Of a stretch of DNA of 64,000 nucleotides, positions 21,296-22,786 are shown piece by piece; within the stretch, counting starts at the first letter, position 1; each line of letters begins with the position of its first letter. A program made the translations under genes and the position numbers. The DNA comes from Pseudomonas sp. C2B4. GTDB taxonomy: Bacteria; Pseudomonadota; Gammaproteobacteria; Pseudomonadales; Pseudomonadaceae. The notes below the pieces were generated by a model. That model made no database searches. It saw only the letters and a list, made by a program, of their open reading frames with translations, and was not told where the DNA came from. Where the stretch lies: assembly GCF_013359695.1 (NCBI RefSeq), contig NZ_JABFMU010000007.1:100234-164233 (forward strand), in the 5' to 3' direction.

Positions 21296-21934
21296 TCAAG
21301 GCAGGCCGTTGCAGCAATGTTTGAGAAAGCCGGGGTGTTGGGCCAGGCGCTTGAAATAATCATCGACGGCCGGGAGGTCGGGTCGCTCCATGGGGGTCAT
21401 CAGCCAGCGATTGACGGACAGACCGATGACGATATCGGCCAGTGTGAATCGGGTCCCGGCGACATAGGCCTTGGTGCTCGCCAATTGGTGTTCGAGGATG
21501 GCCATTTTCTGGTTCCAGCCACGCAGGCCGACTTCCAGGCGATGCGGGTCCTGGAACTCCGGATCCTTGCGCACCAGTGCCATGAACGCATAGACCCATG
21601 ACGCATTGAGTTCGATGGCCTGCCAATCCATCCATTGTTCCACCCGGGCGCGGGCGGCCGGTTCGGTAGGCAGCAACTCGTTGTAGTGATGATGGTGTTT
21701 GCCCGCCAGGTAGCGGCAAATGGTGTTGGACTCCCACAGCGGACCGTTCTCGTCAATGATCACCGGCACCTGCGCGTTGGGATTGAACCTGAGGAATTCC
21801 GGGCTGTGGGTCGAGGCAAAGCCGCTGCCCCAATCCTCGCGCTCGAAGGACAGGCCCAGTTCCTCGCAGGTCCACAGGACTTTGCGGACGTTGATCGACG
21901 AGGCTTTGCCGAGAATTTTCAGTGCATGGTCCAT
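21296..21934 (-). CDS. Glutathione S-transferase family protein
   Basis: This 212-residue cytosolic GST has an N-terminal thioredoxin-like domain: ILGKASSINVRKVLWTCEELGL, then NPNAQVPVI with the cis-proline and ESNTICRYLA for the glutathione gamma-glutamyl group. The C-terminal helical domain has FTLADIVIG (N-capping box). A serine near residue 13 is the likely catalytic residue. The natural substrate is unknown. Confidence 0.9.
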   Translation of the reverse strand: MDHALKILGKASSINVRKVLWTCEELGLSFEREDWGSGFASTHSPEFLRFNPNAQVPVIIDENGPLWESNTICRYLAGKHHHHYNELLPTEPAARARVEQWMDWQAIELNASWVYAFMALVRKDPEFQDPHRLEVGLRGWNQKMAILEHQLASTKAYVAGTRFTLADIVIGLSVNRWLMTPMERPDLPAVDDYFKRLAQHPGFLKHCCNGLP

Positions 21935-22084
21935 GTTGCTACTCCGTCAGCGAATCAAGGCGTCGGAAATCATAGTGAGCCTGCCAACGGTCGACTTCAA
22001 GTGTGTAGGAAGGGTCTGTAGGCAAGGGGTTTCAGAGGATTTCCGCAGGCAGCGATTTCTTGCAGCCTTGCCTACAACTACGCC

Positions 22085-22344
22085 AGAATCCGCCGACTTG
22101 TGCGTCTGGTGTCCGGATTCTATTGTTCCGTGTCGCTGCAAATTCAGCGATCGGGTTTCGCAGCCCGGGTATCTCTAGACGCATGGCGTCCACCGTTCGT
22201 GATCGACTCACGTTATGGCGGCTGTGCGCGGAAGACCTTCGGGTCTACCGGGTTCTAGAGTCCCGGTCTGCGAGCCGCGTACAGCTGCCACCCTCTTCGT
22301 ATCGCAGCGAATCGTGGCAGCTCCATCACTCTAGGAGCATTGCC
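22085..22344 (+). ncRNA. Highly structured leader RNA of the DUF6124 gene
   Basis: At least eight consecutive inverted repeats precede a small gene: AGAATCCG/CGGATTCT (22085-22121), TCGCTG/CAGCGA (22133-22150), CGGG/CCCG (22152-22167), GACGC/GCGTC (22178-22190), CGTGA/TCACG (22198-22212), AGACC-TTCG-GGTCT (22233-22246), ACCGGG/CCCGGT (22247-22267) and AGCTGCCAC/GTGGCAGCT (22283-22322). The loop sequence TCTAGAG (22254-22260) is complementary to CTCTAGA at 22173-22179 and, alternatively, to CTCTAG at 22329-22334, which overlaps the Shine-Dalgarno AGGAG (22333-22337). This is the layout of a cis-acting switch; the signal it might sense is unknown. Confidence 0.7.
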
Positions 22345-22593
22345 ATGTTCAAACCCACGCCCAACCCCCCGCGCAATCCCAGTCCCCTGTTCCTGATCGC
22401 CCCGGGCATCAATAACGAAACCCTGCTGGCCCATGCCTGCGAATCGCTGGCCTCGGCGAGTGTCATGACCAATGACTTTGCGACGTTTCTGGAAGGCACC
22501 CATCGCAACACGGCATTGGCGATTGCACAGATCATCATGCTGGCCGAACTGGCGGTGAATCGGGTGCTGGATAACCTTGATCCGCAGGATTAG
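22345..22593 (+). CDS. DUF6124 (formerly DUF3077) family protein
   Basis: This 82-residue protein starts MFKPTPNPPRNPSP and has the family core LFLIAPGINNETLLAHACESL, a short SASVMTNDF segment and a terminal helix (ALAIAQIIMLAELAVNRVL). Pseudomonas genomes carry several paralogues; their function is unknown. AGGAG lies 8 nt before the ATG. The preceding 260 nt form an elaborate leader RNA, so expression is likely controlled at translation. No other gene belongs to this transcript. Confidence 0.8.
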   Translation: MFKPTPNPPRNPSPLFLIAPGINNETLLAHACESLASASVMTNDFATFLEGTHRNTALAIAQIIMLAELAVNRVLDNLDPQD

Positions 22594-22602
22594 CACCGAA
22601 CC

Positions 22603-22753
22603 TTGTGGCGAGGGGATGTCTGTGGCGAGGGGATTTATCCCCGTTGGGGCGCGGAGCGGCCCTACACCCTGACACTGTGGTCTATCAGACAGAACGCGTT
22701 GCCGGGTTTTAGGGCTGCTGCGCAGCCCAACGGGGATAAATCCCCTCGCCACA
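22603..22753. repeat. REPIN of a second family (GII, GGCGAGGGGATTTATCCCC)
   Basis: Arms TGTGGCGAGGGGATTTATCC (from 22621) and the complement ending at 22753 enclose about 85 nt. A partial third arm, TTGTGGCGAGGGGATG, lies directly upstream at 22603-22618. This family is distinct from the GI REPs that dominate the window. Confidence 0.85.
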
Positions 22754-22786
22754 GTGAATCTCCCTCCCATAAGAATAAAGTCGTGC

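Follow-up and report, generated by a model that had tools for sequence, protein, structure and literature searches.

The locus and its leader

The window, i.e., the whole stretch of 64,000 nucleotides of Pseudomonas sp. C2B4 DNA that was analysed, carries at 22345–22593 on the plus strand a DUF6124 gene (PF19619, 86.1 bits; ATG at 22345), whose 82-aa product is predicted to form a two-helix hairpin. The flanks of the locus, a GST gene and a LacI-family gene, are ordinary chromosomal genes. Behind the DUF6124 gene lies an inverted repeat of the GTGGCGAGGGGATTTATCCCC type (22603–22763); similar copies occur at other sites of this genome and in relatives, and we take the repeat to resemble a Pseudomonas REP doublet. 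The gene is preceded by a structured leader at 22085–22344, all features of which are on the plus strand. A −35 box TTGTGC (22098–22103) and, 17 nt past it, a −10 box TATTGT (22121–22126) are predicted at its 5′ end. When paralogous cassettes were aligned (48 of 58 placed), TTG and TAnnnT boxes were found just 5′ of the a1b1 stem, the TTG box at the same distance from it. The promoter prediction is based on this conservation because a generic promoter scan found no promoter. The leader RNA is accordingly predicted to start near 22133, and the interval probably begins with promoter DNA, not RNA, over its 5′ part from 22085 to about 22132; the inverted repeat 22085–22092/22114–22121 would therefore be promoter DNA. 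The predicted start lies upstream of 22260, and it was a start downstream of this position that the preliminary description had named as speaking against a regulatory leader.

Two Rfam families matched at their gathering cut-offs and were the only ones to do so across the whole window, namely c4-a1b1 (RF03163) at 22120–22171 (51.9 bits, gathering 46.7; E = 3.3e-10 for the whole window), the first bases of which overlap the predicted −10 box, and C4 antisense RNA (RF01695) at 22211–22295 (68.8 bits, gathering 45; E = 2.8e-11 for the whole window). The family is established and listed for Proteobacteria and phages (PMC2864571, in excerpt). By analogy with the offsets of the P1 annotation, the mature C4 RNA is predicted to span 22217–22292. 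At a permissive threshold isrK (RF01394) matched at 22132–22200 with 37.7 bits, under its gathering score of 50; three of 40 related leaders (L111, L128, L135) reach this score. The conserved structured leader proposed in the preliminary description is thus real in its stems, which belong to the C4 and c4-a1b1 families, but its reading as a riboswitch did not survive, as the leader belongs to the C4 family and no riboswitch family matched at gathering in the window or at E ≤ 1 in 21950–22650.

The pairing words are arranged in two sets. The b′ loop of C4 (22253–22261, with TCTAGAG at 22254–22260) has a 7-nt complement upstream in the b1 word CTCTAGA (22173–22179), and downstream faces the b2 word CTCTAGGAG (22329–22337), in which CTCTAG (22329–22334) overlaps the Shine-Dalgarno sequence AGGAG (22333–22337). 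The a′ word CTGCGA (22268–22273) complements TCGCAG in the a1 word TTTCGCAG (22156–22163; TCGCAG at 22158–22163), which is displayed in a hairpin loop, and in the a2 word TATCGCAG (22300–22307; TCGCAG at 22302–22307), which is the loop of hairpin 22296–22311. Our sequence check agreed with the preliminary description on the b words and located its named repeats where it had placed them, i.e., AGACC-TTCG-GGTCT at 22233–22246 and ACCGGG/CCCGGT at 22247–22252/22262–22267 with TCTAGAG in the loop. The two mutually exclusive pairings of one loop that it had noted correspond to b′:b1 and b′:b2, the latter over the Shine-Dalgarno sequence. It had overlooked the second set, in which a′ pairs with a1 and a2, and inverted pairs extend beyond its interval (16 in 21900–22500, many of them long-range). 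Watson-Crick runs of 7 nt to the b′ loop upstream and downstream were equalled in 8 and 11 of 2000 dinucleotide shuffles, respectively. The runs of 6 nt to a′ are unremarkable alone (302 and 355 of 2000 shuffles), and all four pairings jointly were equalled in none of 5000 shuffles. Fold z-scores were −5.0 for C4 and −4.2 for the leader 22133–22344.

Covariation of the stems, which the preliminary description had proposed to look for in homologous leaders, was found among paralogues and hardly among close orthologues. At least one double change was present in 11 of 25 predicted C4 pairs (40 paralogues aligned, of 58 C4s), so that the three-stem fold is kept by compensatory change; at the locus itself close orthologues had a double change in 1 of 83 pairs, and covariation from orthologues only is uninformative because their divergence is too small. 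The a′ and b′ loops complement a1 and b1 upstream and a2 and b2 at the ribosome-binding site, and the ends of the copies are compatible with release of a ~77-nt RNA by RNase P (GG near the 5′ end in 55/58, CCACC at the 3′ end in 47/58). Judged by its sequence, the leader at this locus contains C4, the antisense RNA first familiar from phages P1 and P7.

C4 cassettes in Pseudomonas genomes

All C4 counts per genome from the own-genome, G005, genus and class searches are lower bounds, many genomes of the genus sample having at least 27. The genome of strain C2B4 (6.84 Mb, 132 contigs) contains at least 16 C4 matches over cut-off, 18 a1b1 matches (nine over cut-off), 14 DUF6124 genes, and three DUF3077 genes. 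By position, the 16 C4s precede 11 DUF6124 genes, two DUF3077 genes, and three genes of another small family; two of the latter were scanned without a Pfam match, and the remaining gene shares 86% identity with one that was scanned. The leader is shared by most DUF6124 paralogues of this genome, a point on which the preliminary description had called for a test, as a full C4 cassette precedes 11 of the 14 and at least an a1b1 match precedes 13. The DUF6124 genes C55b (locus L043) and C33 (L036) keep an a1b1 match and have no C4 match; at both, a b2-like site directly follows a1b1. The DUF6124 gene on contig C68 has neither C4 nor a1b1, and a PrrF sRNA (147.5 bits) is located near it (L028, 1282–1428). 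At L046 (contig C51), around 1501–1707, a1b1 (36.6 bits) and C4 (37.6 bits) were recorded below cut-off, and the next gene appears Bro-N antirepressor-like by eye.

The related complete chromosome G005 (7.04 Mb) has at least 42 C4s, 39 of them over cut-off and some close together. By a simple rule, an ORF of at least 60 aa follows shortly behind 36 of the 42, and by eye the genes behind C4 include DUF6124, DUF3077, Bro-N, and unnamed types. Both Bro-N-type genes of this chromosome that were scanned match Bro-N, one of them also phage antirepressor families. C4 was detected in at least 138 of 149 genomes of the genus sample and in at least 12 of 229 genomes of the class sample including the genome of strain C2B4, the other 11 having one to four copies; the 14 named control genomes yielded no C4 in the genus and class searches. 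DUF6124 is missing from all 11 C4-less genomes of the genus sample. Among 36 chosen genomes, i.e., these 11 and 25 with C4 counts below 27 picked from the same sample, C4 and DUF6124 counts were correlated (Spearman 0.92). Six of the 25 C4-bearing genomes are without DUF6124, which indicates that DUF6124 genes are not the only ones served by C4. From named genomes 80 DUF6124 loci were fetched and 40 of them scanned; all but one of these 40, L171, have C4 upstream of the gene and in the same sense.

Pairing words of individual cassettes

The b′ and a′ words of each C4 were compared with the stretch upstream and the stretch downstream of every copy in its genome; the b′ loops of eight cassettes were set by hand in this comparison, and automatic loops were used for edit distances and leader folds. 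The longest Watson-Crick run between b′ and the downstream stretch averaged 7.56 for the own cassette versus 4.76 for others in the 16 cassettes of strain C2B4, and 7.21 versus 4.57 in the 42 cassettes of G005. Upstream, mean runs were 6.44 versus 4.50 and 6.52 versus 4.55, respectively, and each of the four own-cassette means was reached in 0 of 10000 permutations. With duplex energies of a′ and b′ summed over both stretches, the own cassette was best for 13/16 and 33/42 C4s and in the top three for 15/16 and 39/42. It was best for 12/16 and 24/42 when only downstream targets were considered, and for 10/16 and 15/42 with b′ alone downstream; predicted insulation is partial, since these two tests favour the own cassette less often. 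The words of two copies are at least four edits apart in 118 of the 120 pairs of strain C2B4 and in 858 of the 861 pairs of G005 (eight loops automatic), and a match has been lost in several copies, e.g., C66, L075, L091, and L092. As most pairing words fit their own cassette best, each cassette would silence mainly itself. We infer that regulation of the many copies within one cell is for the most part separate, in the manner of the heteroimmune phages P1 and P7, because most cassettes carry a and b words of their own that are best matched to themselves; it is the presence of so many copies in one genome that makes this address system visible.

The locus in relatives and possible mobility of cassettes

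The cassette is kept beside the GST and/or the LacI-family gene in 14 of 32 named loci checked (of 80). Across these 14 loci and the window (15 rows), the a1, a′, and a2 words change together, reading TCGCAG/CTGCGA/TCGCAG in eight rows and CTAGCAG/CTGCTAG/CTAGCAG in seven. Locus L105 has the first word set amid relatives with the second, which points to coordinated switches or to recombination of whole leaders. The GST–LacI junction was fetched from eight genomes. G021 has the same cassette, G005 has no C4 there, and G002, G030, G032, and G017 have no cassette at the junction, with 123–171 bp between the matched flanks versus 843; in G004 and G031 a C4 cassette is present there but inverted.

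Of 34 viral-database contigs that encode DUF6124 relatives, 20 were scanned, and 18 of these 20 have C4 upstream of the relative and in the same sense; in one contig, L223, a tail-assembly-chaperone gene (PF10109) is located 0.8 kb behind the cassette. On account of these C4–DUF6124 pairs on viral contigs and the neighbouring PF10109 gene, predicted prophages contain at least some of the cassettes. In Pseudomonas aeruginosa phage vB_Pae_CF3a (L175), an 88-aa ORF and a Rha-family gene are preceded by a1b1, a T-run, C4, and a2 and b2 words that match. A protein search found DUF6124 in only one phage-collection record, and 27 phage records had matches to part of the cassette DNA. One 21-nt pattern of the window words gave 0 matches in viral contigs. 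A prophage at the window locus itself was considered and found unsupported, given the GST and LacI-family flanks.

Proteins encoded behind the leaders

The DUF6124 protein has dN/dS values of 0.07–0.14 against ten orthologues, i.e., sequence comparison indicates that it is under purifying selection. Its structural model (pLDDT 85) consists of two helices and matched nothing in the PDB at E ≤ 0.001 (best 1.8); searches against PADLOC, PHROGs, and NCBIfam gave no match at the limits used. With a type I toxin–antitoxin system in view, in which an antisense RNA silences a small toxic protein, PADLOC thus offered no match either. Profile comparisons made with a common origin of DUF6124, DUF3077, and the third family in mind gave probabilities of 5–7%, and one protein, on contig C68, passes both the DUF6124 and the DUF3077 Pfam cut-offs. 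A proline pair (PNPPE/PDPPD-like) occurs at about codons 3–10 in 40 of 52 ORFs of strain C2B4 and G005 from otherwise different families; the ORFs were picked by a simple start rule, and six of 58 cassettes gave no ORF of 60 aa. These proline pairs are, we presume, possibly ribosome-stalling motifs. In the DUF3077 cassette L055, b2 is followed by a short ORF that ends in overlap with the DUF3077 start codon (ATGA), which suggests that the two could be translationally coupled.

Proposed mechanism and alternative explanations

We consider it very likely that the leader is a C4-type module in which one transcript carries a1/b1 decoys, C4, and a2/b2 over the ribosome-binding site, and in which the excised C4 blocks translation of its own DUF6124 gene. 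The parts, their order, and their geometry were seen in the sequence, the start codon being 53 nt past the expected C4 end. A single transcript from about 22133 would carry a1/b1, then C4 (22211–22295), and then a2/b2 over the DUF6124 ribosome-binding site. As in P1 and P7, RNase P would cut C4 free, and the a′ and b′ loops of C4 would bind a2 and b2 and thereby close the ribosome-binding site. Rho may afterwards end the untranslated mRNA early; Biere et al. (1992) reportedly described Rho-dependent termination in P1. When leader RNA is abundant, the a1b1 decoy may lift repression, for which the Gifsy-1 IsrK system serves as a model. Isolated duplexes are predicted at −31.2 kcal/mol for a1b1 versus −22.9 kcal/mol for a2b2. 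In the free leader, the fold in which the a1–b1 stretch is paired with the b′–a′ stretch of C4 has −95.9 kcal/mol and the fold with C4 intact −91.8 kcal/mol, so that by prediction the leader, when uncut, comes close to bistability. It is because of this near-bistability and the stronger a1b1 duplex that a1b1 is read as a putative decoy. A terminator before C4 in every copy was considered and not supported, as a run of five T precedes C4 in only 6/16 and 11/42 cassettes; the window copy is without one.

The same energies bear on an alternative in which the leader is mainly a bistable switch in cis, with a1b1 pairing to the C4 loops in the uncut mRNA (structure A of isrK) and a short a1b1 RNA in trans opening the structure and activating translation. 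The free fold indeed pairs the a1–b1 stretch with the b′–a′ stretch, isrK is matched at gathering in L111, L128, and L135 and weakly in the window, and IsrK activates anrP in trans (PMC4825925, in excerpt). However, the closed C4 fold is strongly conserved by covariation, and the five-T run before C4 is found in only that minority of cassettes and not in the window, so that we regard this switch as an unlikely account of the leader as a whole. Still less probable is a role of the C4 RNAs mainly in trans, with other mRNAs of the chromosome as targets, as has been proposed for the C4-like sRNAs of Acinetobacter baumannii (parts of PMC5320573). Many copies with varied loops would suit such a role, but in the comparison among cassettes the loops fit own-cassette targets well above those of other cassettes, and at the orthologous locus a1 and a2 change along with a′. 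That the leader is a decayed prophage remnant without present function seems very improbable: C4 is a phage RNA, 27 phage records match part of the cassette DNA, and the C55b and C33 genes keep a1b1 and no C4, yet the cassette lies between GST and LacI-family genes and is kept here in 14 of 32 named loci, with its matched words retained and dN/dS at 0.07–0.14. A ligand-binding riboswitch or RNA thermosensor in cis, for which the two exclusive pairings with one over the Shine-Dalgarno sequence had spoken, is unsupported after the Rfam match and the word tests and merits hardly any credence, as only the C4 and a1b1 families reach gathering in the window and the words, unlike a ligand pocket, vary from copy to copy with pairing kept.

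Implications of the C4 module

The RNA family and multi-copy C4 in A. baumannii are known already, as is, in all likelihood, the mode of action, and the target families DUF6124 and DUF3077, the scale in Pseudomonas, and the address system are new. A link of C4 to DUF6124 or DUF3077, or self-addressing, was not found in the open-access literature searched, a corpus outside which most subscription journals lie; in the same literature DUF6124 was not mentioned, and DUF3077 appeared as one mutated gene. The C4 module provides a likely regulator for DUF6124 and DUF3077, large gene families of unknown function, and presents a classic phage antisense RNA as a chromosomal module that is widespread in Pseudomonas and often occurs there in multiple copies. 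RNA orthogonality could be tested on antisense/target pairs that have diversified naturally and number in the tens in a genome, and for the C4-like sRNAs of Acinetobacter our results suggest seeking target words beside each copy before trans targets. More speculatively, and with considerable reservation, the Pseudomonas repertoire could be one of mobile, mutually heteroimmune C4 cassettes that form a self/non-self lock on DUF6124 and DUF3077 proteins acting in competition among phages and mobile elements. If so, a resident C4 would silence only cargo with its own a/b address, and an incoming cassette, phage, or plasmid would be expressed when its address is unfamiliar to the cell and silenced when it is familiar.

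Comparison with known systems

The upstream part of the module recalls the locus of IsrK, orf45 (STnc1160), and anrP in the Salmonella prophage Gifsy-1; in related leaders, a1b1 is the part to which the isrK model has matches. At the isrK locus (passages of PMC4825925) an RNA base-pairs with another that lies further downstream, as is predicted here, and coupled ORFs overlap at ATGA, like in the DUF3077 cassette L055. IsrK is described there as an activator, in trans, of its operon, and the window copy differs in being without the T-run. The published IsrK/STnc1160 pair resembles the a1b1/C4 system; the C4 and P1 terms for which PMC4825925 was searched are absent from it.

A. baumannii offers a parallel at the level of copy number. 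Twenty-one C4-like sRNAs with proposed trans targets were published in 2016 (parts of PMC5320573), and these Group 1 sRNAs, like the C4s of Pseudomonas, are many per chromosome and have variable loops. They were shown to be expressed and apparently processed. Trans targets were proposed for them, whereas here target words lie beside each copy, before genes of the DUF6124 and DUF3077 type.

A further close counterpart is the immI operon of P1 and P7, in which C4 base-pairs around the ribosome-binding site and so keeps the antirepressor from being made (passages of PMC12197685 and PMC8198154). C4 is cut there by RNase P, and the P1 and P7 versions differ by 4 nt, which suffices to rule out cross-reaction (parts of PMC5320573, which cites Citron and Schuster 1990 and Hartmann 1995). 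P1 C4 matches the same Rfam family with the same 68.8 bits as the window copy. Its record lists a1, b1, C4 (48343–48419), a2, b2, and icd, which is the order of the window, and b2 is at the ribosome-binding site in both; the icd start is 51 nt past the C4 end, compared with 53 nt from the predicted C4 end in the window. Moreover, icd and ant1 overlap in P1, as do the short ORF and DUF3077 at ATGA in L055. Downstream, the immI operon continues with icd–ant, whereas in the window DUF6124 stands between C4 and the LacI-family gene on the opposite strand, a comparison that concerns gene order. Unlike c4–icd–ant of P1 and P7, the window C4 has chromosomal flanks and belongs to a set whose members differ in their words and number 16 to 42 in a genome.
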